From positions 1-39,405 of the forward strand of contig DAIDJG010000362.1 of the NCBI GenBank assembly GCA_027451445.1: a stretch of 39,405 nucleotides of DNA, written 5' to 3'. Below are positions 2,355-33,068 of the stretch, one piece after another. Within the stretch, counting starts at the first letter, position 1, and every line of letters starts with the position of its first letter. Under the pieces are notes generated by a model. That model searched no databases. It worked only from the letters and a program-made list of their open reading frames with translations, and was not told the DNA's origin. A program made the translations under genes and the position numbers. The stretch comes from Singulisphaera sp. (GTDB lineage: Bacteria > Planctomycetota > Planctomycetia > Isosphaerales > Isosphaeraceae).

Positions 2355-3431
2355 GTGCAACAGAAGAAGATCAATCCCCTCGGCGTTGGCGGCGGGGGCA
2401 CGGCAACGGCCGCTCGGGTTGAACACCACCTCGATCAGTCCGACCTCCGCGCAGCGGAGGCCCTGACCGACGCGTACGCCCGGATGTCGAAGGAACTCGC
2501 ACGGGTGATCGTGGGCCAGGAGGAAGTGCTCAAGCAGATCCTGATTGCGCTGTTCTGCCAAGGGCACTGCATCCTCGAAGGCGTCCCCGGGCTGGCGAAG
2601 ACGTTGATGATTTCCAGCATCGCCAAGCTGCTCTCGCTCCAGTTTGGACGCATTCAGTTCACGCCCGACCTCATGCCGTCGGACATCACCGGCAACGAAG
2701 TGCTCGAAGAAGAGGAGGGGACCGGGCGGCGCAAGATGAGGTTCTTCAAGGGGCCGATTTTCGCCAACATCATTCTCGGCGACGAAATCAACCGCACCCC
2801 TCCCAAGACCCAGGCCGCTCTCTTGCAAGCGATGCAGGAGTACAAGGTCACGGTCGCGGGTGAAGACTATCCCCTCGAGAAGCCGTTCCTCGTTCTCGGC
2901 ACCCAGAACCCCATCGAGCAGGAAGGGACGTACCCGCTCCCCGAGGCGCAGCTCGACCGGTTCATGTTCAAGGTGCTGATCGACTACCCGAGCTACGAAG
3001 AAGAGCTCATGATCGCCGAGACGACCACCTCCACCGACCAGGCGGAGCTGGAACCGATCCTCGGCCGCGACGATATCATCGCGATCCAGAAGGTGGTGCG
3101 GCGGGTCCTGGTGGGCCGCTCGGTGTCGTCGTACGCGGTGAAGCTCGCCCGCGCCACCCGACCGGGCACAGACGAGGCGCCCGACTTCGTGAACCAGTAC
3201 CTCACCTGGGGCGCAGGCCCCCGCGCCTGCCAGGCCATGCTCCTCGGAGCGAAGGCCAACGCGCTGCTCGACGGCCGGGTCCATGTGTCGACCGACGACA
3301 TCCGTTACGTTGCGACGCCCGTCCTCCGACACCGCCTGGCGACCAGCTTCCGGGCGGAAAGTGATGGCGTCCTCTCCGACCACATCGTGGAAAAACTGTT
3401 CGAGACGATCAAGGAACCGGTGGAACGGTAA
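2355..3431 (+). CDS. MoxR-family AAA+ ATPase (cluster 1)
   Basis: A 358-residue AAA+ ATPase of the MoxR family. Walker A is GVPGLAKT (residues 76-83), Walker B ends in DE at 143-144 within LGDEINRTPPKTQAALLQAMQE, and sensor 1 is TQNPIEQEGTYPLPEAQLDRF from 183. These are diagnostic and intact. The C-terminal lid contains TWGAGPRA. MoxR proteins are hexameric chaperones that typically act on VWA-domain partners, and the VWA-like genes that follow fit that role. The chosen start is GTG with GAGG at 2346-2349; a downstream ATG at 2484 is possible but would remove the N-terminal helix preceding the AAA core. It heads cluster 1 and is followed by inverted repeat A1. Confidence 0.93.
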   Translation: MQQKKINPLGVGGGGTATAARVEHHLDQSDLRAAEALTDAYARMSKELARVIVGQEEVLKQILIALFCQGHCILEGVPGLAKTLMISSIAKLLSLQFGRIQFTPDLMPSDITGNEVLEEEEGTGRRKMRFFKGPIFANIILGDEINRTPPKTQAALLQAMQEYKVTVAGEDYPLEKPFLVLGTQNPIEQEGTYPLPEAQLDRFMFKVLIDYPSYEEELMIAETTTSTDQAELEPILGRDDIIAIQKVVRRVLVGRSVSSYAVKLARATRPGTDEAPDFVNQYLTWGAGPRACQAMLLGAKANALLDGRVHVSTDDIRYVATPVLRHRLATSFRAESDGVLSDHIVEKLFETIKEPVER

Positions 3432-3452
3432 GATACGAAATTCAAGAGATCG

Positions 3453-3576
3453 ATCCGCAGATGTCGCAGATGTTCGCAGATGATGAAAAACGACAAAGAG
3501 CATAGCACGCCGGAACTCGGAATACTGTCTAAATACATTCAACTTTATCTGCGTTAATCTGCGACATCTGCGGATA
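3453..3576. repeat. Inverted repeat family A, copy 1
   Basis: Left arm 3453-3481 and right arm 3547-3576 are near-perfect reverse complements. They are built from ATCCGCAGATG, TCGCAGATG and TTCGCAGAT units and separated by a 65-bp spacer. The left arm begins about 21 nt after the moxR stop. The arms differ by a few bases in the unit next to the loop, making this the most diverged of the five copies. The spacer contains GGAATA, also present in copies 2 and 5. Confidence 0.9.
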
Positions 3577-3642
3577 AGCCTCTTCGATTCGTTCGTAATG
3601 GCTTAGGCGGTTAGTCCGTCTCTGGTCCGTGGGAGTTGCCCT

Positions 3643-4536
3643 TTGAACGGTAATAACCGCTATTTTGATCCGGATGGCCTGGCGCGCATCGGCAACATGG
3701 AGCTGGTGGCGCGGCAGGTCGTGGAGGGATTTCTCACCGGCCGGCACCGCAGTCCGTATCATGGGTTCTCGGTTGAGTATCTCGACCACCGCGCGTACAC
3801 GCCGGGAGACGACATCCGGTCGCTCGACTGGAAGATCCTCGCGAGGTCCGACAAATATCACGTCAAGCTGTTCCAGGACGAGACGAACCTCCGCGCGACA
3901 ATCTTGCTGGACTGCTCGGCGTCAATGACGTTCAAGAGCGACGGGATGAGCAAGCTGGAGTACGGCAGTTTCCTCGCCGCCGCTCTCGCTCACCTGATGC
4001 TTCGACAGAAAGACGCCGTCGGTCTGACACTCTTTGACCGCGAGGTTCGCGCCTCGTTGCCGCCTCGCGCCCGGCCTTCGCAATTCCGGCAGATCCTCGA
4101 CCTGCTCGACCAACCGCCGACGGGGAGTGATACCGACGTTGGATCGATCCTCCACACCGTCGCGGAACGGATCAAGCGCCGAGGCCTGGTGATCATCATC
4201 AGTGACCTGATCGACGACGAGGCAAAGATCGCCAACGGCTTGCAGCACTTCCGCCACAACCGCCACGAGGTGGTCGTGTTCCAGGTGATGGATGACGCCG
4301 AATTGACGTTCCCGTACGACCGGATTACGCGCTTCAAAGATCTCGAAGGGGCAGGGCGGGTCGTGACCAACCCCAAGAGCCTCCGCACCCGCTACCTGGC
4401 GCGGATCAACGCGTTCACGGATGCGATCAAAACGGCCTGTTTCGAACGGGGGATCAGCTATAACCTGGTCAACACGAAACAGCCTTACGACATGTTCCTG
4501 GCAGCCTACCTGGAAAAACGAGCCCGAATGGGATGA
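3643..4536 (+). CDS. DUF58 domain protein (cluster 1)
   Basis: The 297-residue product has the DUF58 signature YTPGDDIRSLDWK (residues 52-64), followed by a VWA-like half with a metal-ion (MIDAS-type) motif D-C-S-A-S at 90-94 and a second acidic stretch, VIIISDLIDDE, near 187-197. There is no membrane segment, so it is probably cytosolic. DUF58 proteins are the usual neighbours of MoxR ATPases and are taken to be their partners or adaptors. The TTG start is supported by GGGAG at 3631-3635, 7 nt upstream; no ATG lies near the conserved N-terminus. It is flanked on both sides by family A inverted repeats. A diverged paralogue lies at 20306. Confidence 0.9.
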   Translation: MNGNNRYFDPDGLARIGNMELVARQVVEGFLTGRHRSPYHGFSVEYLDHRAYTPGDDIRSLDWKILARSDKYHVKLFQDETNLRATILLDCSASMTFKSDGMSKLEYGSFLAAALAHLMLRQKDAVGLTLFDREVRASLPPRARPSQFRQILDLLDQPPTGSDTDVGSILHTVAERIKRRGLVIIISDLIDDEAKIANGLQHFRHNRHEVVVFQVMDDAELTFPYDRITRFKDLEGAGRVVTNPKSLRTRYLARINAFTDAIKTACFERGISYNLVNTKQPYDMFLAAYLEKRARMG

Positions 4537-4542
4537 AAGAGG

Positions 4543-4672
4543 TTTATCCGCAGATGTCGCAGATGAACGCAGATGAAATAACAAGAATAATATTGGAATA
4601 AATTAGATTAATTTTATTAAAGATTTCTTGATTTTTATTAATCTGCGTTCATCTGCGACATCTGCGGATAAA
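4543..4672. repeat. Inverted repeat family A, copy 2
   Basis: The arms at 4543-4574 and 4641-4672 are perfect 32-nt reverse complements (TTTATCCGCAGATGTCGCAG and onward). They flank a 66-bp spacer made almost only of A and T, in sharp contrast to the GC-rich genes. The left arm starts 7 nt after the DUF58 stop, and the right arm ends 23 nt before the next ATG. Imperfect complementarity continues outward (AAGAGG against CTCTGTT). Confidence 0.95.
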
Positions 4673-4695
4673 CTCTGTTGGATTCGGAGTGCTTC

Positions 4696-6987
4696 ATGAC
4701 GTTCCTTCACTGGGCCCTGTTTCCGCTTGCGGCGTTGGCCGTGGTGCCGATCTTGCTCCACTTGCTGACGTTGCATCGGCTGCGCACGGTGGAGTTGAGC
4801 ACGTATCGGTTCCTGTTCGATAGCTACGTCCAGCAGCGCCGGCGGATGAAGTTTCTCGAGGCGCTCCTGGCACTTTTGCGCAGCCTGTTTTTGCTGGCGC
4901 TCGTGGTCGTCTTCTGCCGGCCGGTCGTGAAGCACTGGGACCGTCTGTTCGGCGGCGGTTCCGGGCGCGAGGTTGTGCTTTTGGTGGACAGTTCGGCCAG
5001 CATGAATGCCCGGACGGCCGGGCGGTCGAGCATGGACCGGGCGAAGAGTGCCGCGCTGGCGGTGGCCGAAAGCCTCGGGCGCGACGACCGGGTGACCTTG
5101 ATCCGGGTCGGTGGCCGGCCGACGGAGGTCTTCAACCGGTTCGGGGCCGATGCTGAGACGATCCACGAAAAGATCGAGGGGTTGGAGCCGGGTCCTGCAC
5201 GCGCCAATCTGTTCGCGGCCCTCGCGCACATCTTCGGTCCCAGGAAGCAGGATGAGGTGCGGCCGAACGTCTATGTGTTCACCGACGGCCAGTCGGGCAC
5301 CTGGCGCGAGGTGCGGGACGGCGGCCTGGAGCGCGTTGTGCCCCAGGGCACGAAGCTGACGGTCGTCAATGTGGGCACGGACGAATCTGTCGGGAACCGG
5401 GGTGTCATTGGTGATGCACCTCGCCAGAAGTTGGCGATTCTTGGCCTCCCAGTGCGGCTTCGGCCGCGTGTCGTGAACCAGTCGCGGACCGAGACGGCGG
5501 AGGTGACCGTCGGCGTCTTCCTCGACGAGAAGGAAGTCGCCCGCGTTCCGTTCACGCTCAAGCCGGGCGAGACCGCCGCCAAGGAGATCGTCTACGTTCC
5601 GACCGACGCAGGGGCGATCCAGGGACGCTTCGAGATCAGTGCAGACCGTTTCCCGGACGATGACACGTTCCTGTTCACTCTCCCCGTCGCCCGGCAGATT
5701 AAAGTACTGCTGGTCAACGGTCATCCGGCCGCCGACCCCTTCGAGAACGGCGCGCTCTACTTGCGCACCGCCCTGAGTGCGAGCGACGAAGATCAACCTG
5801 CCGCCAAGACCAAGGCGGCCCAAGCCGCGACGCTCGGACCGAGCGCGGAGTTTGTGCGGTCGCTCGATGTCCAGGAGATCACCGAGGATAAGCTGAACGC
5901 GGAAAGCCTGCGAGAAACCTCGGTGGTGATCCTGGCCAACTGTGGAGCCCTCGATGCCCCGAAGTTCGCCGCGCTGCGCGAATTCGTGGCCGCGGGAGGT
6001 GGATTGCTCGTCTTCCCCGGCGACAAGGTGAACCCTGACGTCTACAACAAGCAGTTCTTCCCTGTCCCCGGCCCGCAGAAGGAGGCCCTCACCGCCGCGG
6101 AGTTGGCCCCACCTGCGGGTGACCCCAAGCAGCGGTCGACGTTCGAGCGGCTGGGCTCGATCGACTTTGCCCACCCTGCGCTCTCGGTCTTCGACGACCC
6201 TGACGCCCATTACCTGACCTCGGCCTACTTCTCGCGACGATTCCCCCTGAAGCTGGGCGAGCCCCGAGGCTCGAGCTGGCCCCTGGCCAAGTTCGCCTCG
6301 GGAGCGCCCGCCCTGGTTGAGAGCCGGCTCGGCGACGGCGTCGTGGTGCTCGCGGCCTTCCCGGCTGAAACGCGCTGGACGAACCTGCCACTCAAGCCCG
6401 AGTTCGTCCCCCTGGTCCTGCGACTGGTCAGCTACGCGTCGCACGCGGCTGACCTGGAAGTTCCGTCGACCGTGCCCGCCGACGGTGCGGCGGAGATTGC
6501 CGTCACTGGGACATGGGCGCCCGTCTCGGGCAAGATCCACGACACGCACGGCCGGCCAACCCCGTTGACGTTTGAACGATCGGCCTCGCGGCTCCTCGGC
6601 CAGTTCGACCAGACGAACGCGAAAGGCTACTACGCCGTCGAGGTCAAAGGAGGCCGGCCCAATCCACCGCAGCTCGCGTCCTCATCGTTCGCCGTGAACG
6701 TTGCGCCGGAGGAGTCGCGCTTCGAAACGGTGAAAGAGGACCAGATCCGCGAGTGGCTCCCGCACGCCGATCTGACGTTCGTCAACGCCTCGGCCGAACA
6801 ACAGCAGATCCATGGCGCCTTCGGCGAAGAACGCGAAATCTGGCGCCCACTCATCTTCGTGGTCTTCGCGATCATCGGCGCTGAGTTTATGCTCGCCACC
6901 CTTGGCGGCAGCCACGACGAGACGCAGATGCGCCGCACACTCAGACAACGACTTCAGGCAGCGGTTCCAAGCGGTGAACTCGAATAA
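4696..6987 (+). CDS. BatA-like membrane VWA protein (cluster 1)
   Basis: A 763-residue protein with the BatA/DUF1550-type N-terminus: a membrane segment at about 5-25 ending PILLHLLTLHRLRTVELST, and a second at about 55-75. A VWA domain follows, with its MIDAS motif D-S-S-A-S at 98-102 and VYVFTDGQSG near residue 200. The middle part (VLLVNGHPAADPFENGALYLRTAL, then GGGLLVFPGDKVN) resembles the class I amidotransferase-like fold often fused to planctomycete VWA proteins. A third membrane segment near the C-terminus (LIFVVFAIIGAEFMLATLGG) would close a large extracytoplasmic section. I chose ATG 4696 because GGAGT lies 5 nt upstream and the family begins at this MTFLHW; an in-frame TTG at 4678 is less likely. 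It is a probable MoxR client. Confidence 0.88.
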   Translation: MTFLHWALFPLAALAVVPILLHLLTLHRLRTVELSTYRFLFDSYVQQRRRMKFLEALLALLRSLFLLALVVVFCRPVVKHWDRLFGGGSGREVVLLVDSSASMNARTAGRSSMDRAKSAALAVAESLGRDDRVTLIRVGGRPTEVFNRFGADAETIHEKIEGLEPGPARANLFAALAHIFGPRKQDEVRPNVYVFTDGQSGTWREVRDGGLERVVPQGTKLTVVNVGTDESVGNRGVIGDAPRQKLAILGLPVRLRPRVVNQSRTETAEVTVGVFLDEKEVARVPFTLKPGETAAKEIVYVPTDAGAIQGRFEISADRFPDDDTFLFTLPVARQIKVLLVNGHPAADPFENGALYLRTALSASDEDQPAAKTKAAQAATLGPSAEFVRSLDVQEITEDKLNAESLRETSVVILANCGALDAPKFAALREFVAAGGGLLVFPGDKVNPDVYNKQFFPVPGPQKEALTAAELAPPAGDPKQRSTFERLGSIDFAHPALSVFDDPDAHYLTSAYFSRRFPLKLGEPRGSSWPLAKFASGAPALVESRLGDGVVVLAAFPAETRWTNLPLKPEFVPLVLRLVSYASHAADLEVPSTVPADGAAEIAVTGTWAPVSGKIHDTHGRPTPLTFERSASRLLGQFDQTNAKGYYAVEVKGGRPNPPQLASSSFAVNVAPEESRFETVKEDQIREWLPHADLTFVNASAEQQQIHGAFGEEREIWRPLIFVVFAIIGAEFMLATLGGSHDETQMRRTLRQRLQAAVPSGELE

Positions 6988-6996
6988 CAGATTGTC

Positions 6997-7078
6997 ATCC
7001 GCAGATGTCGCAGATGAACGCAGATTAAGGAAGAAATTTTCAATTTTTATCTGCGTTCATCTGCGTCATCTGCGGATA
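6997..7078. repeat. Inverted repeat family A, copy 3 (short loop)
   Basis: The arms at 6997-7025 and 7049-7077 are complementary except for one missing base in the right arm (GCGTCATCTG instead of GCGACATCTG). The loop is only 23 bp, the shortest of the five copies. It lies 9 nt after the stop of the BatA-like gene and 23-24 nt before the next ATG. Confidence 0.93.
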
Positions 7079-7101
7079 GGAACTCTCACGAGGACCGAGT
7101 C

Positions 7102-10100
7102 ATGGCCGAGCACCAGACACGTCCCGACATTTCGCCGATTCGCCGGTTGGTTCGGCGGACCGTGCGCCTGCTTCGATCGAGCTGGGTTGCGACGGGGATG
7201 GGGCTGACCCTGGGCCTGGGGCTTGGGACCCTCGTGGCGCTGGCGTTGCTGGACCTGGCATTGCCGTTGGTCGAGGGCTTGCGGGTTGTGGCCCTGGTGC
7301 TGGTTGTGGTGCCTGCGCTCTGGATGTTTGTTAATGGTGTGCTGCGCCCGCTCTTGCGGCGGCTACGGCCTGCGCAGGTGGCACGGCGGATCGAGCGACA
7401 TATTCCCGGGATCCATAACCGGCTTGTGAGCTGCATTGACCTCGATAACGGGGAAGGGTCGAAGAAGTATTCGCCGGACTTCCACAAGCGGCTGGTGCAC
7501 GAGGCGCTGGAGCGGATCAAGGGGTTCCATCCTCGCGTCGTGGTCGATGGCCGGCGGCTCCGGCGCGCGTTGGTTTTCGCGGGGGCGAGCGTGGTCGCCT
7601 TGGTGGTAGCGTTTGGTCTGTTCTCGGATCGCATGCCGACGGCGTTTGCGCGGATCTTCTCGCCGTTGGCCGATATCCCTCCGGCCTCGGGCGTGTTGTA
7701 CACCGTCGAGCCGGGCGATGCGAAAGTGCTCAAAGGGGACGACATCACGTTCACGGCCGTGGTCACCAAGGGCGATCCGGGGCGGCTCCAACTGGAGATT
7801 CAGCCTGAGGCCGACGTGAAGGGCCTGCGCTACGACCTTCAGAAAGTGGAGCCCGGGCGCTGGACGTTCACGCTGAGCGGCTTCGAGCATTCGTTCCGTT
7901 ACCGGGTGCGCGGGGGCGGTACGTGGAGCCTTCAGAAGCGGATCACGATGGTCGAGCGTCCGGTTCTGGTTGGCCTGCATACGGTCCTGCACTATCCCGA
8001 GTACATGGGCATGCCCGACCCTCGCGTCGGGCCGCCGCAGGTGGCCGATGTGACCGGGCCGGAGGGGAGCGCGGTCGAAATCGTTGCGCAGGCCGAGGGA
8101 AACGTGGCCGAAGGCGAGATCCAGGTTCTGGGGACGCGGTCGAAGAAGGTTGAAGTGAGCGACCGGCCCGAGAGCATCTGGTACCAGGAGCATTTGCCGG
8201 AAGGGGCGAGTGCGAAAGGACAGTGGGAATGGGATCTCCGCTTACTGGCTCGCCCTGCCCATACGCAGCCCCCGTCCAAGGACTTCAACCAGCATGAGTT
8301 CACCGGCGGTCCGGCCTACCCGGTGCAAAGTAACGATGTCTTGTTCGCTTATGTGTATCTTAAGCCAACCGAACTGCCCGAGATGATCTCGGTCAAGTGG
8401 TTCGATGGCGCGGGCTGGGAGCACCGGGCGTACTGGGGCGCGGACAAGCTGCCGAACGATAACGTGAAGCCCAACACACCGGGCCGGCAGCACATGGGTC
8501 CGCTGCCGAAAGCGGGGGAATGGGTCCGGCTGGAGGTGCCGGCGAAGCTCATGGGCATGGACGGGAAAAGCGTGCGCGGGATGTCGTTCGGACAGACCGG
8601 CGGCCGGTGCTACTGGCACCGCGCGGGGGTGTTGCCGCCGGCGTTCGAGGAGCGGCCCGAGCTGTACGTCGCCTCCACATTCCCGCTGGCTTCGGCCGGC
8701 TCGGGGGCGTGGGCGGGCCGGTTCCCCCTGGAGCGCGAGACGCTGTACCGGGTTGAGCTGCGGAACGAGCTCGGACATCCAAGCAAGCCGATGAAGCCCG
8801 GCAAGGCCACGGCGATCCCGGACAATCCGCCGCAGGTCGTACTCGAACGGCCGGGCAGCGACCTCGTGCTCAGCACGCCGGCCAAGGTGCCACTCTCGAT
8901 CGCGGCGTTCGACGATTTCGGCTTGGCAGATATCGTCGTCGCAGTTCAGAAGGGGGACAGCGGCGGGTTCATCGGCCGGCCGGTCAAGCATTACGACAAA
9001 CCCCAGCGCAGCGAGAACGTGCTCGCCACGCTCGACCTGCCGAGCATGGACCTGAAGCCGGGCGAGCACATCCGCTACCGGGTCGAAGCACGGGACCGCA
9101 AGGGTCAAAGCGCCCAGACGCAAGAATACATGGTCCGGATCGCCGCCGACAACAACGCGGCCGACAAGCAGCTCGACAACTACGACAAGAGCCAGGACGC
9201 GTTCCGTGAGAATCTCGTCAAGCTGATCGCCGAGCAGGCCAAGGTGCAAGAGACGGTCAAGGCGATGACCGCCAAGTATGCGCCGCTGGAGGAGAAGCTC
9301 CAGGCCGTCGCCAAGGCCGAGGAACGTCCGGCCCCTGAAGGAGCGCCCAAGCCGGCCGAGGCCGCCAACGCGCCGAAGCTCGACCCGGAGACTGCGAAAC
9401 AGCTTGAAGAATTGCGTAAGGAACTGGCCCAGCTCGCCGGGCAGGAAGCGCAGAACGTGCAGCTCGGCCAGAACGTCGAGGCCGGCCTGAAGCAGGCGGC
9501 CGAGCAAGCGGCCAACCTCAAGATGCTCCCGTCCGAGATGCTCAACCAGCTCCAGGCCCTGCCGCGAGCGTTCCAGACCCGCGCGCTCGACCCCTTGCAG
9601 GACCTTGCGGCCGAGATGAAGCAAGGGGCCGACGCGAAGCAACCTCCGCCTGACCTCGCCGCAATGCAGCACGAGGCGAACCGAGTCCAGCAAGAGCTCG
9701 AGGCCGTCAAGGCCCAGCTCGATGCCGCCTCCAAGGCGCGCAAGGAACTCCCGCAAGATGCGGGGGAGGCCATCGCGGCGCTGCGGCGCGAGATGCTCCG
9801 CCAGAACGCTGACCTCTCGGCGCGCGAGCTTCAGGAGCTCATGGAGTTCCTCAAAGCGCGAGCCGAGGAGTTGAAACGGCTCGAAGGCCAGCAAGAACAG
9901 CTTGCTCAGGCGACGCCGAAGGCGCCCGATGTGATCCTACCGGATATCGAGAAGCGGCAGGGCGAACTCGATCCGAAGGAAGACCAGGCCCTCGATGAAG
10001 CACGGCAGCTCCTCAACGCGGAGCGCATGCGCCGGTTGAGGGGCGATCCCGACTTCCCCAACGCGCCCTTCCGACCGGAGGCCGATGAGCGGATGGTCCC

Positions 10101-10842
10101 TCCCAAGGAGGAAGACCCTGCCGAGCCCGATGCGGCCAAGGACAAAGCTGCGGCCAAGAAGGACGGCGATCAGGCCAAAACCAAGGACGAAGCCGGCGAG
10201 CATGAAGAAGAACCTCTCTTCATGCCCGCGCTCGGCGGGCCGCAGCCCAAGCTCGATCCGCGGTTCGCCGACAAGCTTCGCCCCGTTCCCCCCAAGGCCG
10301 CCGCGAAGCACGGCGACCATCCCCCCGACGCCAACGAGCATCGGGCGGAGCTTGCGGCTCACCAGCAAGAGCGCCTCGCGGAGCTCGACACCGCGCGCCA
10401 GGCACTCGCCAGCGACGAGCACTCACTCGACGCGATGCTCCAGCAGCTTCATCAGGCCCTCAACGATCACGACGCGGCCCACGCCGACCAGCTTCTGAAC
10501 GAAGCGATGCACAACCCGGCCCTGCAACAGGCGCTCGCAATGGCCCAGCGCAGCCAGCGGCTCAACAACGCCCGGACCCAGGCCCGCAACCACCCGCCGG
10601 GTCAGCCAACCTCAGCAATCACGAACCGGCCGGACGAACTGCCCACGACCGACAAGGTCGGCTCGCCGGAAAGCGATCAGCTCGCCGAGCTCGATATCGA
10701 AACGCGCACGGTCATCCTCAAAATGCAGCCCCAGCTCCGCGAGGAACTGCTGCAAGGCCTGCGCGAGGAAGGTCCGGAAGGCTACAAGGCGTTCATCCGC
10801 GATTATTTCAAACGGCTCACCAAGGTTAAAGGCGGCCCTTGA
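7102..10842 (+). CDS. DUF4175-like giant membrane/coiled-coil protein (cluster 1)
   Basis: A 1246-residue protein. Two membrane segments lie within about residues 33-80 and a third near 153-172. Extracytoplasmic beta-rich repeats follow to about 690. Residues 690-1200 form a long Gln/Glu/Ala/Lys-rich coiled coil, interrupted by a charged low-complexity linker (about 990-1080). The end, LREELLQGLREEGPEGYKAFIRDYFKRL, matches the terminus of the cluster 2 counterpart, so this is a family hallmark. Residues of roughly 393-510 look like an inserted beta-sandwich domain (LFAYVYLKPTELPEMISVKW, WEHRAYWG, MGPLPKAGEWVRLEVP) that the paralogue lacks. GAGGA at 7090-7094 supports the start. It probably forms the scaffold of the envelope complex; no enzymatic motif is seen. 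Confidence 0.82.
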   Translation: MAEHQTRPDISPIRRLVRRTVRLLRSSWVATGMGLTLGLGLGTLVALALLDLALPLVEGLRVVALVLVVVPALWMFVNGVLRPLLRRLRPAQVARRIERHIPGIHNRLVSCIDLDNGEGSKKYSPDFHKRLVHEALERIKGFHPRVVVDGRRLRRALVFAGASVVALVVAFGLFSDRMPTAFARIFSPLADIPPASGVLYTVEPGDAKVLKGDDITFTAVVTKGDPGRLQLEIQPEADVKGLRYDLQKVEPGRWTFTLSGFEHSFRYRVRGGGTWSLQKRITMVERPVLVGLHTVLHYPEYMGMPDPRVGPPQVADVTGPEGSAVEIVAQAEGNVAEGEIQVLGTRSKKVEVSDRPESIWYQEHLPEGASAKGQWEWDLRLLARPAHTQPPSKDFNQHEFTGGPAYPVQSNDVLFAYVYLKPTELPEMISVKWFDGAGWEHRAYWGADKLPNDNVKPNTPGRQHMGPLPKAGEWVRLEVPAKLMGMDGKSVRGMSFGQTGGRCYWHRAGVLPPAFEERPELYVASTFPLASAGSGAWAGRFPLERETLYRVELRNELGHPSKPMKPGKATAIPDNPPQVVLERPGSDLVLSTPAKVPLSIAAFDDFGLADIVVAVQKGDSGGFIGRPVKHYDKPQRSENVLATLDLPSMDLKPGEHIRYRVEARDRKGQSAQTQEYMVRIAADNNAADKQLDNYDKSQDAFRENLVKLIAEQAKVQETVKAMTAKYAPLEEKLQAVAKAEERPAPEGAPKPAEAANAPKLDPETAKQLEELRKELAQLAGQEAQNVQLGQNVEAGLKQAAEQAANLKMLPSEMLNQLQALPRAFQTRALDPLQDLAAEMKQGADAKQPPPDLAAMQHEANRVQQELEAVKAQLDAASKARKELPQDAGEAIAALRREMLRQNADLSARELQELMEFLKARAEELKRLEGQQEQLAQATPKAPDVILPDIEKRQGELDPKEDQALDEARQLLNAERMRRLRGDPDFPNAPFRPEADERMVPPKEEDPAEPDAAKDKAAAKKDGDQAKTKDEAGEHEEEPLFMPALGGPQPKLDPRFADKLRPVPPKAAAKHGDHPPDANEHRAELAAHQQERLAELDTARQALASDEHSLDAMLQQLHQALNDHDAAHADQLLNEAMHNPALQQALAMAQRSQRLNNARTQARNHPPGQPTSAITNRPDELPTTDKVGSPESDQLAELDIETRTVILKMQPQLREELLQGLREEGPEGYKAFIRDYFKRLTKVKGGP

Positions 10843-10862
10843 TCAGGAAGACGAAGACGTTC

Positions 10863-10986
10863 TATCCGCAGATGTCGCAGATGAACGCAGATAAAGATAA
10901 AAATACAATGGATAGCAATCGTCGTTTCCACGCGATCGCAGAATAGACTGAATTTAATCTGCGTTCATCTGCGACATCTGCGGATA
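10863..10986. repeat. Inverted repeat family A, copy 4
   Basis: The arms at 10863-10892 and 10957-10986 are perfect 30-nt reverse complements around a 64-bp spacer that is less AT-rich than in copy 2. The left arm starts 20 nt after the DUF4175-like stop, and the right arm ends 45 nt before the next ATG. Outside the right arm the sequence GACTCTTCTGATTC resembles the tail of copies 1 and 2. Confidence 0.95.
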
Positions 10987-11031
10987 GACTCTTCTGATTC
11001 TATGGTTTGTTTATAGCAGGGATTGGTTTTC

Positions 11032-13449
11032 ATGATCAAGTGGTTTCTCACAACGATCGGCGTCGGCGATGAACTGCTCGTGCGGCTTGACCAGGCGGTC
11101 CTGGCTGTGCAGAGGCCGGGCCTGTTGTGGGTCGGGCTGGCGCTGTTGGTGCCGGTCGGTTGGTTTATCATTCAGCGGCAACGCCAGAACCTTGCCGGGA
11201 TACCGGGGGCGCTTCGAGCCGCTCTCAGTGCCACGCGGATCGCTGTGGTTGGGCTGCTCGTCGTCGTATTGGCCGGTCCCTACTTGAAGGTCGATTACCA
11301 GATCGACAAGCGGCCGATCGTGGCGCTGCTCTTCGACCAGTCGCAAAGCATGCAGCTTCCGGCCGGTCCGTTTGAGGACAATGCCGAGGCGGTCAAGGTC
11401 GCACAGGCAGCGGGTTACCTGACGTCGCCCGGCCAGGGGATTGGGGGCCAGCCCGATCCCGAGACGCGCAAGGCGCTCAACCAGGTGGGCCGGACCAAGC
11501 TTGCGCAAACCGTCGTGAAGGCGAGCGTGAAGACGTTGACGGAGCCGTTGGCCGAGAAGTTCGACGTGCGGTACTACGCGTTCTCGCGTCAGCCGGAGTC
11601 GCTCGGCGTCGACGCCGCCCATCCCGTCTTTCCCGAGCCGCCGACGCCCGGCGGTTCGTCGACCCAGATCGGCGATGCGCTTGGCCGTGTCTTCGACGAT
11701 GCGGCCGGTCGGCCCATCGCGGGGATGTTCCTATTCTCTGATGGGCAGAACACCGGTGGCCGCTCGCCGGCCGAGGCCGGCAGTGTCGCAGCTCGACTTG
11801 GGGCGCCTTTGTACGCGGTGCCGACGGGTACCGCGACGCGGCTCAAAGACGTGGCCATTGTTGATGTCTTCACCTCGGGACTCGTCGCACTCGGAGACAC
11901 GGCGCGGATTGCCGTCACAGTCGAGTCACAAGGGTTCGACGCCCGGCCCGTCAAGGTCGAACTGCGTGACGGCGACAAGGTCCTCGCCACAAAGGACCTC
12001 ACGCTTCACGATACCGAGCAACAAAAGATCGACCTCACCTTCGAAGCGAAGGAGCCCGGAGCCAAGTATCTGACCGTGGCCATTCCTCCCTTGCCCGAGG
12101 AGCCAGAGCACCTGAAGGCGAACAACACGGATGTGGCGTTTGTCCGCGTGAGCGAGGAGAAGGTTCGCGTCCTGGTCATCGACGGCCTCCCGCGCTGGGA
12201 TTTCCGGTTCCTGAAGAACGCGTTGCGGCGCGATCACGGGATCGGCGGCCGAACGAACAAGGACCAGCCGGACGTGGTGCTCGAGAGCGAGCTCCGCCGC
12301 CAGCCGGCCGAAGCGAAGGACAAGGCCCTCCCCGCCAATGTGGATGAGCTGGCGGATTATCACACGATCATCCTCGGTGATGCGTCTCCCGCGTTGCTCA
12401 CACCTGCGTTCGTGACGATGCTGGCTGACGCCGTGCGCGACAAGGGGGTCGGCCTGATCGTCGAGGCCGGGCCGCGGTTCATGCCGCAGGGGCTGGACGA
12501 GCGCTTGCGAGAGCTGCTCCCCGTACGGCTACGAGCCAGCGCGGGCGGGCTCGATGCGCCCGTGTACAAGCCGTTCCAACTGGAGCTGAGCCCGGACGGG
12601 TCGGTCCACGAGGTGATGCGGCTCTACGACGACCCGGGCCGGAACCAGAACGCGTGGTCGCAGATGCATCCCTATTACTGGTGCGCCGCGGTCGAACGCC
12701 CCGCGCCTGCGGCATCGGTGCTGGCGTGGAACCCGAGCGTCGAGGGACGCTACGGCAAACTGCCACTCATCGCCCACCACTACGCCGGCCGGGGGAAGGT
12801 GCTGTTTGTCGGCACGGACTCGACCTGGACCTGGCGGCAGAACGTCGGCGACCGCTTCTTCTACAAGTTTTGGGGCCAAGGGGTCCGGTTTGTCGCCCGC
12901 CGCGATACCAAAGGAGCGCAGAAGAGCTGGATCGAAGTCCGCCCCGTCCGCGCCCAGCCGGGCGAAGAAGCCCAGATCGAGCTGATGGCCATCGGCACCG
13001 ATGGCACCCCGCGCACCGAACGCACGCTGTCGATTCAACTTTCCGGCGTCGGCACACCGGGTTCGCTCGAACTGACGGCCGACCCGGCAACCAAAGGCCG
13101 GTACACCGGCCGGTTCACGCCGCAGTCGATGGGCGACTACCTGCTGAGCTACAACCCCGGCGACGGCACACCCGCGGTCGAAGCCAAGCTTCGCGTGATG
13201 GCGGCCCCTGAGGAGATGCGCCATCCGAACGTGAACCGCCCCGCGCTCGACCTCCTCGCCAGCGCGACGGGCGGCCGGGTCGTCGAACTCGACGACCTCG
13301 CGTCAGTGGTCCCCGGTCTCAAGGGCGAGTCGAAGCTCACCCAGATCCACCGCGAGGCGACCCTCTGGGACAACTGGCTCACGCTCGTTGTCCTGATCTC
13401 CATCTACTCGCTCGACGTGGCGCTCCGGCGTCTGGCGGGACTGTCATGA
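11032..13449 (+). CDS. VWA / amidotransferase-like membrane protein (cluster 1)
   Basis: An 805-residue protein with membrane segments at about 31-47 and 67-82. A VWA domain follows, with MIDAS motif D-Q-S-Q-S at 102-106 and FLFSDGQNTGG further on. A beta-sandwich region comes next, then a class I amidotransferase-like region beginning RVLVIDGLPRWDFRFLKNAL and including YHTIILGDASPALLTPAFV and GKVLFVGTDSTWTWR. A C-terminal membrane segment (LTLVVLISIYSLDVALRRL) ends the protein. No catalytic Cys-His-Glu set is evident, so it is unlikely to be an amidotransferase enzyme. ATG 11032 is preferred over TTG 11023 because of its spacing from AGGGA. Its stop overlaps an in-frame ATG of the next reading frame (ATGA at 13446). 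The paralogue is at 23782. Confidence 0.87.
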   Translation: MIKWFLTTIGVGDELLVRLDQAVLAVQRPGLLWVGLALLVPVGWFIIQRQRQNLAGIPGALRAALSATRIAVVGLLVVVLAGPYLKVDYQIDKRPIVALLFDQSQSMQLPAGPFEDNAEAVKVAQAAGYLTSPGQGIGGQPDPETRKALNQVGRTKLAQTVVKASVKTLTEPLAEKFDVRYYAFSRQPESLGVDAAHPVFPEPPTPGGSSTQIGDALGRVFDDAAGRPIAGMFLFSDGQNTGGRSPAEAGSVAARLGAPLYAVPTGTATRLKDVAIVDVFTSGLVALGDTARIAVTVESQGFDARPVKVELRDGDKVLATKDLTLHDTEQQKIDLTFEAKEPGAKYLTVAIPPLPEEPEHLKANNTDVAFVRVSEEKVRVLVIDGLPRWDFRFLKNALRRDHGIGGRTNKDQPDVVLESELRRQPAEAKDKALPANVDELADYHTIILGDASPALLTPAFVTMLADAVRDKGVGLIVEAGPRFMPQGLDERLRELLPVRLRASAGGLDAPVYKPFQLELSPDGSVHEVMRLYDDPGRNQNAWSQMHPYYWCAAVERPAPAASVLAWNPSVEGRYGKLPLIAHHYAGRGKVLFVGTDSTWTWRQNVGDRFFYKFWGQGVRFVARRDTKGAQKSWIEVRPVRAQPGEEAQIELMAIGTDGTPRTERTLSIQLSGVGTPGSLELTADPATKGRYTGRFTPQSMGDYLLSYNPGDGTPAVEAKLRVMAAPEEMRHPNVNRPALDLLASATGGRVVELDDLASVVPGLKGESKLTQIHREATLWDNWLTLVVLISIYSLDVALRRLAGLS

Positions 13450-13510
13450 AACGGGATGAGCCTATGCGTACCAAAGCGATTTCCACCATCGTCACGCGCC
13501 CAAGCGCATT

Positions 13511-13661
13511 ACTCCCCCCCTTGGGAAGGGGGGGTGGGGAGTCAGCGCACGCATTCGGCTGGTTCCATGTCCGTCAACCGTTAAGCGCAAAAAAGTGGCT
13601 CGTGGCTGAGGTGCATCCATCGGACGGCCACTGCCCACCCCCCCTTCCCAAGGGGGGGAGT
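13511..13661 (+). repeat. Poly-C/G-ended inverted-repeat element B, copy 1
   Basis: The left end (13511-13543) and right end (13631-13661) are near-perfect reverse complements sharing the core CTTGGGAAGGGGGGG / CCCCCCCTTCCCAAG, around an interior of about 87 bp. The interior and the right flank to about 13740 align with copy 2 in the opposite orientation. Examples are TTCGGCTGG at 13554-13562, GTCAACCG at 13573-13580 and GGCCACT at 13626-13632. This makes it a defined element rather than a simple hairpin. It has no coding capacity of its own and looks like a small non-autonomous mobile element. Confidence 0.85.
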
Positions 13662-13706
13662 TATGAGGTTCCACACGTCGCGAAGGGGGTGGTGCGAAGC
13701 GATGCG

Positions 13707-14762
13707 ATGCGCAATCCGACCGTAAACCGCTGTCGCCTCGTGATCTCTGCATCGCTCGTCGCGTTCCTTGTTGCGCTCCCAGTCCGCGCGCAGGGTCCGC
13801 AGGCGTCGACCCCTGAGCCGCTGACCGAGATCAAGGTCATCGAACGCGTGACCGCGTCGGTCGACCGCAGCCTGGCCTACCTTGCCTCGAAGCAGCTTCC
13901 GGACGGGAGCTGGCACAAGAACAACGCGGTGAATGCGCTGGCGATCCTGTCGTTCCTGGGGCGTGGACACGCTCCGGGACATGGGCCGTATCGTGACGTG
14001 GTCGAGCGCGGCAAGAAGTTCCTGCTATCGACGGCCAAGACCGACACGGGCTACGTCTCGTTCAGCTCGATGTACGAGCACGGTCTTGCCACGCTCGCGC
14101 TGGCCGAAATGTATGGGATGGACCCCGACCCCGAGCTCGAAGAGAAGCTGCGCAAGGCCGTTGACCTGATCGTCAAGTCGCAATCTCCCTCGGGCGGCTG
14201 GCGCTACAATCCGAATCCTGGCGACCAGGACCTGAGCGTTACGGTGATGCAGATCGTCGCCCTCCGCGCGGCGAATAACGCCGAGATCCCCGTCCCGGCC
14301 CCGGTCATCGAGAAGGCGATCGGCTACGTGCGCACCTGCTCCCACGCCAGCGGCGGCTACGCCTACACCGCCGGCGGCGGGCCGGGTCCGCAGACCACCG
14401 CGGCGGGCATCCTCTCCCTCCAACTGCTCGGCAAATTCGACGACCCGACGATTCCGAAGGCCCTCGAAGTGCTGGCGAAATATCCCATCAAGTGGGACAC
14501 CAGCGTCCAGTACTTTTACTACTTCCACTACTACGCGGTGCAAGCCGGCTATCAAACCGGCGGCCAGCACTGGAACGACTGGCATCCCAAAATCCGCGAA
14601 TTGCTTCTGTCGAAGCAAAACGGCGACGGCAGTTGGGACGTACCGCCAGGAACGGCGGAAGCCAACGAAGGAGTGGTCGGACCGAACAAGATCTACTGGA
14701 CGGCGATGTCGTCATTGATTCTGGAAATCTACATGCACTTTCTGCCAGCGTATCAAAGATGA
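13707..14762 (+). CDS. Secreted prenyltransferase/squalene-cyclase-repeat protein
   Basis: A 351-residue protein with a signal peptide (basic start, then LVISASLVAFLVALPVRAQG) followed by alpha/alpha-barrel repeats of the prenyltransferase/squalene oxidase type: LAYLASKQLPDGSW, YVSFSSMYEHGLATLALAEMYG, KSQSPSGGWRYNPNPGDQDLSVT, TCSHASGGYAYTAGG and LLLSKQNGDGSW. The DXDDTA catalytic motif of squalene-hopene cyclases is absent, so it is probably a binding or structural protein outside the cytoplasm. The frame is open upstream to an ATG at 13446 that overlaps the previous stop. I chose ATG 13707 because the signal peptide begins there and the intervening codons are made of repeat element B. Repeat A5 follows the stop. 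Confidence 0.85.
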   Translation: MRNPTVNRCRLVISASLVAFLVALPVRAQGPQASTPEPLTEIKVIERVTASVDRSLAYLASKQLPDGSWHKNNAVNALAILSFLGRGHAPGHGPYRDVVERGKKFLLSTAKTDTGYVSFSSMYEHGLATLALAEMYGMDPDPELEEKLRKAVDLIVKSQSPSGGWRYNPNPGDQDLSVTVMQIVALRAANNAEIPVPAPVIEKAIGYVRTCSHASGGYAYTAGGGPGPQTTAAGILSLQLLGKFDDPTIPKALEVLAKYPIKWDTSVQYFYYFHYYAVQAGYQTGGQHWNDWHPKIRELLLSKQNGDGSWDVPPGTAEANEGVVGPNKIYWTAMSSLILEIYMHFLPAYQR

Positions 14763-14772
14763 GGGAGAGTTT

Positions 14773-14885
14773 TATCCGCAGATGTCGCAGATGAACGCAG
14801 ATGAAATACGAGGAATCGGAATAGTTAAATAGTCAAAAATTTAATAATTCGATTAATCTGCGTCTATCTGCGACATCTGCGGATA
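14773..14885. repeat. Inverted repeat family A, copy 5
   Basis: The arms at 14773-14802 and 14856-14885 match except for a two-base swap (GTTCA against GTCTA), around a 53-bp AT-rich spacer. Complementarity continues outside: GAGAGTTT before the left arm pairs with GAACTCTT after the right arm. It begins 10 nt after the cyclase-repeat stop and ends 24 nt before the next ATG. This is the last family A copy in the window. Confidence 0.95.
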
Positions 14886-14909
14886 GAACTCTTTATCGGG
14901 ACCTATTCC

Positions 14910-21279: not shown

Positions 21280-21448
21280 ACTCCCCCCCTTGGGAAGGGG
21301 AGGTTGGGGGGGTGGTGAGTGGCCGCCCGTTGCGCGCCATTCAGCGACGAATCGACCGTCGGCGCATAGCGGTTGAGCGACATGCGGCCAGCCGAAGGCG
21401 TCTGCTTATCCCCCGCCCCCCCGACCCCCCCTTCCCAAGGGGGGGAGT
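21280..21448 (-). repeat. Poly-C/G-ended inverted-repeat element B, copy 2
   Basis: The ends (21280-21313 and 21410-21448) are reverse complements sharing CTTGGGAAGGGG / CCTTCCCAAG. Read on the minus strand, the interior aligns with copy 1: CCAGCCGAA at 21388-21396, CGGTTGAG at 21370-21377 and AGTGGCC at 21318-21324 are the complements of the landmarks in copy 1. The homologous flank runs from 21279 back to about 21206, next to the DUF58 stop. Apart from this element the 321-bp gap 21209-21529 holds only the ribosome-binding site (GAGGAA) of the next gene. Confidence 0.85.
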
Positions 21449-30762: not shown

Positions 30763-32931
30763 ATGGACCGGAAACTGACGATACATGGTTTTCTCGGTTT
30801 TCCTTTCTGTGCCCTCTGTGCCCTCTGTGGTAGATCGCTCGCCGCGGAACCCTGGCATCTGAACGGCTGGACGGCCCGGGCTGTGGTGGATGTCGCGCCG
30901 GGACAAGCCGAGCCCGGTGCGAACACTGCGGGTGTGCGCGTGCTTTGCCAGGGGCGTGCAAAAGCCGACGGCTCTGACTTTCGCGTGATCGATGCCGGCG
31001 GTAAGCCGGTGCCGTTCCAAATTACCTTCTTGGACTTCAGTCGCTACGCCCTAATTTCGTTTCAAGCTCAAGAGCCGAAAGCGCGATACTTCGTCTACTT
31101 CGGAAATCCGCAAGCCACGCGCGCCCCCGAGCAAATCGCCGACGCGCCCCCTCCCGGTGGAGGGGCGCCCCAGGGCGCGTGGGTGCCGCACCAGGGCCTC
31201 GTGCTCCAGACCCTCCGCCGGCCGGAAGGCGAGAACCCGAAGACGATCGACGAGATGGCCAAGCTGATTGCCGCGAGCCCCGCGAAGGACGGCGCACGCT
31301 ATCAACGGCGCGTCGAGGACGGGTTCAATCCGTTCGGTTCGTCAGACGGTTATATCAGCATTTACCGAGGCTGGATGCGCATCCCGAAGGCCGGGAAGTA
31401 CAAGTTCTGCACCGTCTCGAACGAGGCGTCGTTCTCGTTCCTCGACGGTAAGGAACTGGTCCACTGGCCGGGCCGGCACACCGTCGAGCGCGGGATGCGG
31501 GGTGAGAAGAACGCGACGGTCGAGCTCTCGGCCGGGCTGCATTACCTCGAATACTATCAGGAAGAAGTCGTCCTGGAGCAGATGGCCTATCTCGCCTGGC
31601 GCCCAACGGGCGATGACGGGCCGTTCGAACCAATCCCCGAATCCGTCTTTCCTGCGCCGCTCGACGCGACCGTGACACGCTATGAAACGCCCGAAGGGAA
31701 GACGCTCCCCGCCTTCGAGCCCGTCGTGCTCGACTCCATCTGGCCGACCGACCGCCACGAAGGCCAGTACACACGCATTCGCTTCCAGGCGGCTCCCGCG
31801 ATCGACGGAACGACCTACCACTGGGACTTCGGCGACGGTCAGACCGCGACCGGACCGAGCGTCGAACATGTCTATCTCGCCCTTGGAACCTATAACGTGA
31901 CCCTCAAGGCCGAAGGCTCAGCCTCTCAAGGTGAGACTCGCTGGCCATTGACCGTTTTTACGATTGAGAACGTCACCGACCGCTTCGAGGAGGGCCGGCC
32001 CGAGGATTACGCGAAGGTCGCCCGCAGCTACGATCTCTCCAAGCTTGATGCACCGAGCCTGCGCGAGCTGGCGCACCTCCTGGCCGAGAGCGAGGATGCC
32101 AGCGCTGCCCTCGAGGCGGGCAAGCGGTACGTCGAACGCTTCGGCTCCGCACAGCCGGCGACCGTCCCTCGCATACGCAGACTCATGGCCGATTGCGCCT
32201 TGCAACTGGGGCAAGGGGGTGTCGAGGAAGCGATTGCCCAATTCGAAGCGTCGCTCACCAGTGACACGCCCGCGACCGAGCGGCTCGATGTGCTCGCGCG
32301 CTTGATCCGTCTGCTGGGGATCGACCGCAACCTCCCCGAAAAGGCCGGCGCCTTGCTCCCGCGGGTCGAGGCGGCAGTGAAAGGGGCGAAGCTCGACGAC
32401 GAGACGCTCGCCGCTTATCGACGTGCCGTGATTGCCGCGGCCGACGTACTCCTCTGGAACGCGAAGCTCGACGGTGCTCGCGAGCTTTACGACCGCGCCG
32501 AGAAGCTCGGCAATCGCTTCATCCCCCGACAGGTGCGTGCCGCACGCATCGGCGCGTACCCGAACGCCGTGCGCGAGTACATCGACAGCGGCAACTTTGG
32601 TGCGGCGCTCGACCTCGTCGACAAGTGGGACGAAACGTTCCCGACCGACAAGCCGAACGGCCAGACGCTCTTCTGGCGCGGTAAGCTGTTGCTCCTGCGC
32701 GGGCAGCCCAAGGAAGCCGCGCGCTACCTGGCCCGTGCGATCGGTCTTGCTCCCGGAGCGTCGTTCGAATCCGAGTCCCGATGGCTCCTCGCCCAGGCGC
32801 TCGAGCAAGCCGGCAAGCCGCAGGACGCCCGCAAGGAACTGGCGCGACTTGTCGCCTCAGGCATCAACGACGCGTTCGCCCAACGGGCGAAGGCGAAGCT
32901 GGCGGACGGGACGAAACCGAATGGCAAATGA
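30763..32931 (+). CDS. Secreted PA14/PKD/TPR-like multidomain protein
   Basis: A 722-residue protein. An N-terminal signal peptide (MDRKLTIHGFLGFPFCALCALCGRSLAAEP) is followed by a DUF2341-like sandwich (about 30-120; DFRVIDAGGKPVPFQITFLDFSRYALISFQ, YFVYFGNP). A PA14-like region comes next (about 138-296; GWMRIPKAGKYKFCTVSNEASFSFLDGKELVHW), then a PKD domain (about 325-400; YHWDFGDGQTATGPSVEHVYLALGTYNVTLKA), and a C-terminal helical TPR-like part. It is probably a surface protein. I chose ATG 30763 because GAAAGGA lies 9 nt upstream and it starts the signal peptide; GTG 30745 is an alternative. The hydrophobic core is encoded by a short-period repeat (see 30801), and the stop lies inside another repeat (32929). 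Confidence 0.83.
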   Translation: MDRKLTIHGFLGFPFCALCALCGRSLAAEPWHLNGWTARAVVDVAPGQAEPGANTAGVRVLCQGRAKADGSDFRVIDAGGKPVPFQITFLDFSRYALISFQAQEPKARYFVYFGNPQATRAPEQIADAPPPGGGAPQGAWVPHQGLVLQTLRRPEGENPKTIDEMAKLIAASPAKDGARYQRRVEDGFNPFGSSDGYISIYRGWMRIPKAGKYKFCTVSNEASFSFLDGKELVHWPGRHTVERGMRGEKNATVELSAGLHYLEYYQEEVVLEQMAYLAWRPTGDDGPFEPIPESVFPAPLDATVTRYETPEGKTLPAFEPVVLDSIWPTDRHEGQYTRIRFQAAPAIDGTTYHWDFGDGQTATGPSVEHVYLALGTYNVTLKAEGSASQGETRWPLTVFTIENVTDRFEEGRPEDYAKVARSYDLSKLDAPSLRELAHLLAESEDASAALEAGKRYVERFGSAQPATVPRIRRLMADCALQLGQGGVEEAIAQFEASLTSDTPATERLDVLARLIRLLGIDRNLPEKAGALLPRVEAAVKGAKLDDETLAAYRRAVIAAADVLLWNAKLDGARELYDRAEKLGNRFIPRQVRAARIGAYPNAVREYIDSGNFGAALDLVDKWDETFPTDKPNGQTLFWRGKLLLLRGQPKEAARYLARAIGLAPGASFESESRWLLAQALEQAGKPQDARKELARLVASGINDAFAQRAKAKLADGTKPNGK
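30801..30832 (+). repeat. Short-period repeat family D (CTGTGCCCT units)
   Basis: Three consecutive 9-nt-period units of TCTGTGCCC type lie at 30801-30832, ending CTCTGTGGT. They fall inside the signal-peptide codons of the 30763 gene. No complementary arm is visible nearby, so it is a single arm or remnant. Similar tracts occur as dispersed intergenic repeats in planctomycete genomes, from general knowledge and not checked here. Confidence 0.6.
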
Positions 32932-33020
32932 CAGATGGCAGATGCAAGATGCAAGAAAGTCTGCGGCGATTCGGCCTCCATCTCGCATCTGCCATCTGCC
33001 ATTCTGCATCTGCCATCTGT
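32929..33020. repeat. Inverted short-period repeat family C (CAGATGG/CATCTGC units)
   Basis: The left arm, ACAGATGGCAGATGCAAGAT at 32931-32950 and onward to 32956, is complementary to the right end at 33001-33020. The right arm is longer, with five consecutive 7-nt units of CATCTGC type from 32985 to 33020. The left arm begins at the stop codon of the upstream gene. The unit shares CAGATG with family A but has period 7 instead of 9-10. Confidence 0.8.
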
Positions 33021-33068
33021 CCTCACGACCTGCGCACCAACTCCCCAGCACCCACGAGGGCCTACCCC

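Follow-up and report, generated by a model that had tools for sequence, protein, structure and literature searches.

Five inverted repeats in one gene cluster

In the window, the whole stretch of 39,405 nucleotides that we analysed, five junctions of one gene cluster each hold a long inverted repeat, which raises the question of whether these hairpins serve the operon that contains them or are copies of an element that inserts preferentially at such sites. An earlier note on this DNA leaned towards base pairing maintained for a role in the operon and gave hairpin insertion with a site preference as the competing explanation. All five repeats are real and lie at the junctions named there: moxR–DUF58 (3439..3589, arms 3439-3481/3547-3589), DUF58–BatA (4542..4673, arms 4542-4574/4641-4673), BatA–DUF4175 (6997..7077, arms 6997-7028/7046-7077), DUF4175–VWA (10861..10988, arms 10861-10895/10954-10988) and cyclase–CRD (14766..14892, arms 14766-14805/14853-14892). 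The host genes around the first three include those for a MoxR-type AAA ATPase (2355..3431, + strand), a DUF58 protein (3643..4536, +) and BatA/VWA (4678..6987, +; probable start 4696).

Each arm is built of GCAGAT units with a period of 9–10, as had been described, and there are three units per arm; CGCAGATG occurs 25 times in the window versus 2.15 expected, a count reached by no shuffle. The description of the stems as perfect or almost so also held (repeats 2 and 4 are perfect, and the remaining three have 1–3 mismatches), as did that of the loops as diverged, these being A/T-rich and mutually unrelated among the five window repeats. Left arms begin close after a stop codon, at 9–21 nt counted from the first conserved base (ATCCGC). 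The distance of 23–25 nt from right arm to next ATG that had been given for three copies stood in part: it is about 22–24 nt in two copies and about 17–21 nt in the fifth, but 43 and 67 nt in the other two. A single consensus, gaagagtytATCCGCAGATGTCGCAGATGAACGCAGATtaagaa, describes the two ends of every copy, so that the true terminal repeat is about 45 nt long, its outer part being rich in purines. The five window copies are miniatures of about 80–150 bp and are non-coding.

One reading of these data is that a hairpin has been selected at these operon junctions, for mRNA segmentation, 3′-end protection or expression ratios, with its sequence free to change, so that two species would come to hold unrelated hairpins. 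The RNA folds of the five repeats are very stable (z-scores of -7 to -13.5, with no shuffle folding equally well), in keeping with such selection, whereas the absence of any Rfam match in the window at gathering score (0 matches) counts against it.

A dispersed family placed at gene ends

The repeats are not special to this operon; the family is dispersed across the genome. A degenerate arm pattern, run over the window's genome (G000, a 10.9-Mb draft of 622 contigs whose gene content and scan results fit a planctomycete), gave 88 matches, versus 0 in the reversed control, and these resolve into 44 hairpins beside diverse, unrelated genes. None of the 44 lies in the interior of a host gene; 34 are at tandem, 8 at convergent and 2 at divergent junctions, versus 118, 28 and 27 in the background (256 kb). 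Thirty-five start no more than about 30 nt past the stop of a gene pointing at them, whereas for positions drawn at random from intergenic DNA the share within 30 nt after a stop is 10% when weighted by length or 28% when counted per junction (p = 5e-27 to 2e-12). The earlier note had suggested a genome-wide check for enrichment just after stops and inside operons; the former was found, but operons are not favoured. Genes were called with a simple, purpose-written codon-usage finder, so that distances to starts are approximate.

Placement 3′ of genes, together with a purine-rich left edge and a pyrimidine-rich right edge (outer flanks of the GAAGAG...CTCTTC type), is compatible with the elements being transcription terminators, or parts of them, that were spread by ordinary duplication. 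We consider this very unlikely, because intrinsic-terminator-like sites (G/C stem plus T tract) number 10 versus 11.7 in shuffles, with only the copy at 14863-14887 scoring, because most copies lie between same-strand tandem genes, and because the long form of the element contains a nuclease gene. Selection at the operon junctions finds some support in the census, in that the five copies of the window form a cluster (its 27 junctions would be expected to hold 0.16, p = 8e-7) and the arms covary within copies (28.1 versus 27.2 of 30 matching, 0 of 10,000 permutations). The same elements, however, also follow unrelated and convergent genes, and the covariance, although present, is equally predicted for a mobile hairpin, so that it fits hairpin-dependent mobility and RNA pairing alike. 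A link to moxR/DUF58/BatA loci alone was considered and rejected: further copies are found next to paralogous loci in some cases (C310, C418, C498), yet the neighbouring genes are mostly unrelated.

The flanks of the hairpins showed no significant target-site duplication (longest flank match 5.2 nt on average versus 4.9 nt for permuted flanks, p = 0.075). Tandem pairs in which a flank had been duplicated along with the GCAGAT element were seen at L182:9810-10140 and L170:1460-1800, the former (contig C56) taking in the final 30 nt of the gene upstream; such duplications agree with breakage and repair at the hairpin, without amounting to proof.

A coding copy with a GxxExxY gene

The copy on contig C94 is the long form of the element, in which near-identical arms surround a complete GxxExxY gene. 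Its 380-nt loop codes for 136 residues, in a frame that opens with an ATG within the left arm and closes with a TAA within the right arm, and the protein scores 145.1 bits against TIGR04256 (cut-off 35) and 139.6 bits against PF13366 (cut-off 22). The search of the 10.9-Mb genome found no other PF13366 gene, and neither CRISPR genes nor a helicase partner were seen beside the C94 copy. The 43 short copies and the one coding copy have about 41–45 nt in common at both ends, just as MITEs are non-coding copies with the terminal inverted repeats (TIRs) of a coding element in the same genome. No miniature loop contains a relic of the GxxExxY gene, so that the putative descent from the coding copy is traced through the arms only. 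Start and stop codons within the arms, as in C94, are not a general rule, with both present in only 5 of 60 loci.

We think it likely that the five window repeats are miniatures of this dispersed hairpin family, whose long form is a hairpin-flanked GxxExxY nuclease gene, and that the family is a nuclease-linked, gene-end-targeting mobile element.

Linkage of arms and nuclease across relatives and phyla

Arms and nuclease gene are linked well beyond this genome. PF13366 was found in 35 of 59 related genomes, and most intact GxxExxY genes of these relatives lie inside long inverted repeats; the arm words differ (CACAGAG, CGCAGAG, CACGGAT, CACGGAG, CACGAAA, CGCCAAG and CGCAAAG), with a common build of tandem units at a period of 9–10. 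A scan of GTDB species genomes for close homologues yielded 80 loci from >15 phyla, in both metagenome-assembled (MAGs) and isolate genomes. An inverted-repeat score of ≥16 was reached at 79.5% of 146 GxxExxY loci, versus 13.6% when flanks were paired between loci, a figure raised by unrelated loci having arm words in common, and 1% for control windows shifted along each locus. At this threshold, about 20% of the GxxExxY loci lack a clear inverted repeat. Arm similarity is correlated with protein similarity (Mantel r = 0.63, 0 of 999 permutations; r = 0.47 once close pairs are removed). In 86 of 101 cases a protein and its nearest protein neighbour agree in arm class, as they do in 31 of 41 when only planctomycete relatives are counted (expected 0.21); shared descent contributes to all of these figures.

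It might be argued from the miniatures, which have no trace of the gene, that nuclease gene and repeats are independent, GxxExxY genes simply ending up in intergenic regions rich in repeats. This appears very improbable given the drop from 79.5% to 1% in shifted windows, an arm class that follows protein subfamily, and the presence of one and the same arm sequence around close homologues in many phyla.

Turnover at orthologous junctions

At orthologous sites the elements have turned over, as seen by comparison with a sister species (G001) of the same genus, about 80% identical in DNA over the cluster. Distant BatA homologues (25–32% identity), being paralogues, were left out when junctions were compared. 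Four of the five window junctions in G001 hold a hairpin of unrelated sequence: CGCCAAG-type hairpins replace the GCAGAT type at moxR–DUF58, DUF58–BatA and DUF4175–VWA, the inverted repeat at DUF58–BatA carrying a complete GxxExxY gene, and a C/G-rich hairpin is found at cyclase–CRD. The fifth junction, BatA–DUF4175, is at contig ends, where the sister assembly breaks at G/C-rich repeats. Pairing kept for a role in the operon, as the earlier note proposed, agrees with these replacements, but recurrent insertion at preferred sites predicts likewise.

At 14 further orthologous sites in G001 (one more, C354a, is at a contig end and outside the 14), 6 are empty (C358, C56:4335, C33, C136b, C418a and C103), although two lineages that are about 80% identical are too diverged for exact empty-site boundaries. 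A same-family element is present at 4 (C144, C67, C2 and C400), CGCCAAG elements or remnants at 3 (C325, C167 and C240), and a homologous GxxExxY element with ACAGATG arms at 1 (C94). That none of the five window junctions was shown to be empty, versus 6 of 14 elsewhere, would favour a hairpin selected at the operon, but the difference falls short of significance (Fisher p = 0.13), a whole nuclease gene is present in one of the replacements, and the elements track a nuclease family across phyla. We regard such selection as unlikely. Hairpin insertion with a site preference is better supported, by the dispersal, by the preference for gene ends and by the 6 of 14 empty orthologous sites, and an operon-specific role for the five genes is not needed.

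Gene ends are re-used repeatedly by different families, as indicated by an excess of CGCCAAG elements at the sites tested: they occupy 5 of 19 in G001 versus 0.07 expected (p = 1.5e-8, or 3e-5 if the operon counts once). The CGCCAAG tandem occurs at about 22 loci in G001 and has 1 match in the window's genome. The nuclease element of C94 is at one junction in both species, with its arm unit changed, and so may also have been resident there for long; no insertion was caught in the act among the compared genomes. The sole CGCCAAG tandem of the window's genome (L046, G000:C63:17560-17772) lies about 120 nt from a GCAGAT element and is perhaps a remnant of an older family at that junction. One otherwise empty G001 locus (L359) has a small GTAGGGTGCAT...ATGCACCCTAC hairpin, which belongs to another repeat family.

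Predicted fold of the GxxExxY protein

The GxxExxY protein is predicted to have a Cas4/RecB-like PD-(D/E)XK nuclease fold, although a shared fold shows no function. Across 41 GxxExxY sequences, E, D, E-x-K and Q are invariant and QxxxY nearly so. An AlphaFold model with a pLDDT of 95, made for a close homologue (L272) and not for the C94 protein, has as its best structural match SSO0001 (4ic1; Z 9.9, 101 residues, 3.6 A), which we take to be a Cas4. Foldseek placed the lambda and RecE exonucleases and AddAB at high ranks, with I-Bth0305I among the matches, and Holliday junction resolvases scored about 6–7 against the L272 model. No homologue was found in the PDB by sequence. Conserved residues and predicted model together display the features of the PD-(D/E)XK superfamily (fold, D...ExK and Q), and an earlier publication reports that a GxxExxY domain was called at a place which a different tool assigned to cas4 (PMC8934634).

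Proposed mechanism and relation to known elements

We infer that the nuclease drives the mobility of the element. It would recognise the tandem arm units in a cruciform or in a hairpin of single-stranded DNA, and cut at the arms or at a new site; repair would copy the hairpin in, allowing ORF-less copies to spread in trans, and a new arm family could in this way overwrite its predecessor. Any influence on mRNA, for instance through weak termination or RNase III processing, would be a by-product that is tolerated at gene ends.

Several known systems bear a resemblance. Like REPIN/RAYT systems (PMC3116915, PMC2817692), these are multi-copy extragenic hairpins that would depend on one or a few nuclease genes per genome and have nuclease-specific arm families, and the GCAGAT elements are likewise inverted doublets that form dispersed extragenic hairpins. 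RAYTs, however, are HUH (Y1) tyrosine enzymes found beside, and not usually inside, a hairpin, and the REP palindrome is short (PMC3116915, PMC2817692), whereas here a PD-(D/E)XK nuclease is coded between arms of about 45 nt with three tandem units. Since the gene between the arms is a PD-(D/E)XK gene, not a Y1/HUH transposase, in the coding copy and in the sampled GxxExxY loci, we do not file the elements under REPIN/RAYT, though they may work like REPIN/RAYT or MITE. MITEs also have short non-coding copies with only the terminal inverted repeats in common with a coding element; unlike them, the present elements have no DDE transposase and no detected target-site duplication, and their insertion is strongly biased to just past stops.

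The IVS (S23p) protein is a four-helix bundle; a search for this family (PF05635) gave no match here, the control of that search also being without a match. The 23S rRNA intervening sequences with an S23p ORF (for example, in Coxiella, PMC4990558) are similarly small selfish units with one small ORF, but they sit in rRNA helices and encode a protein of another family. PD-(D/E)XK homing endonucleases (I-Bth0305I and relatives) are selfish single-gene elements with the same type of nuclease; the present elements, in contrast, involve neither intron nor intein, lack a conserved coding target, and have long inverted-repeat ends and miniatures. Cas4/RecB-family nucleases provide the likeness in predicted fold, in the D-ExK-QxxxY residues and in the best structural match, but here the nuclease is a stand-alone protein of 120–136 aa inside a hairpin.

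A literature search on the repeat words, a role of GxxExxY in repeats and PF13366 returned nothing relevant in open-access papers, which is weak evidence that the association of GxxExxY genes with hairpins appears to be undescribed. The elements point to a class of mobile element in bacteria that has received little description. GxxExxY proteins occur widely among bacteria, with a motif as their sole annotation; should their genes prove to belong to hairpin elements, this large, uncharacterised family would gain a testable role, and intergenic repeats of the GCAGAT, CACAGAG and CACGGAT type in many genomes would gain an origin. The correspondence of arm code and nuclease subfamily would also offer a convenient system in which to study how repeated DNA is read by a small nuclease.

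Other repeat families and DUF559 genes

Further inverted repeats, missed by the earlier note, are present in the window. C/G-rich repeats of the CTCCCCCCCTTGGGAAGGGGGGG type lie at a sixth junction, inside ORF 13446-14762 (13507..13665, in frame in its N-terminal part), and at the junction at 21.3 kb (21280..21448), and a third family (GGCAGATGCAAGATG) is at 32921..33021; another GGCAGATGCAAGATG copy is nested inside the loop of the GCAGAT element L019, which lies between a different pair of moxR and DUF58 genes. The CTCCCCCCCTTGGGAAGGGGGGG type flanks DUF559 nuclease genes in this genome, where all four strong DUF559 (PF04480) genes (L161-L164) are inside long C/G-rich inverted repeats. The association is weaker in relatives, being clear for 3 of 8 strong hits and marginal or absent for the others, and a second nuclease–repeat pair of DUF559 and C/G-rich repeats is a lead and not a result.

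More speculatively, and with considerable doubt, one might propose a pan-bacterial class of mobile hairpins run by Cas4-like (GxxExxY) and Vsr-like (DUF559) PD-(D/E)XK nucleases. Each arm would carry three times a subfamily-specific code word (CRC-NRAN: CGCAGAT, CGCCAAG, CACAGAG, CACGGAT, CACGAAA), and an incoming subfamily would overwrite resident hairpins at the same gene ends, leading to concerted replacement of arm families.

In the cyclase-like ORF itself, the C/G-rich repeat follows the start codon and precedes the signal peptide, in frame (13446-13800), and the sister species has a different C/G-rich repeat at the equivalent place, where the frame is open too.
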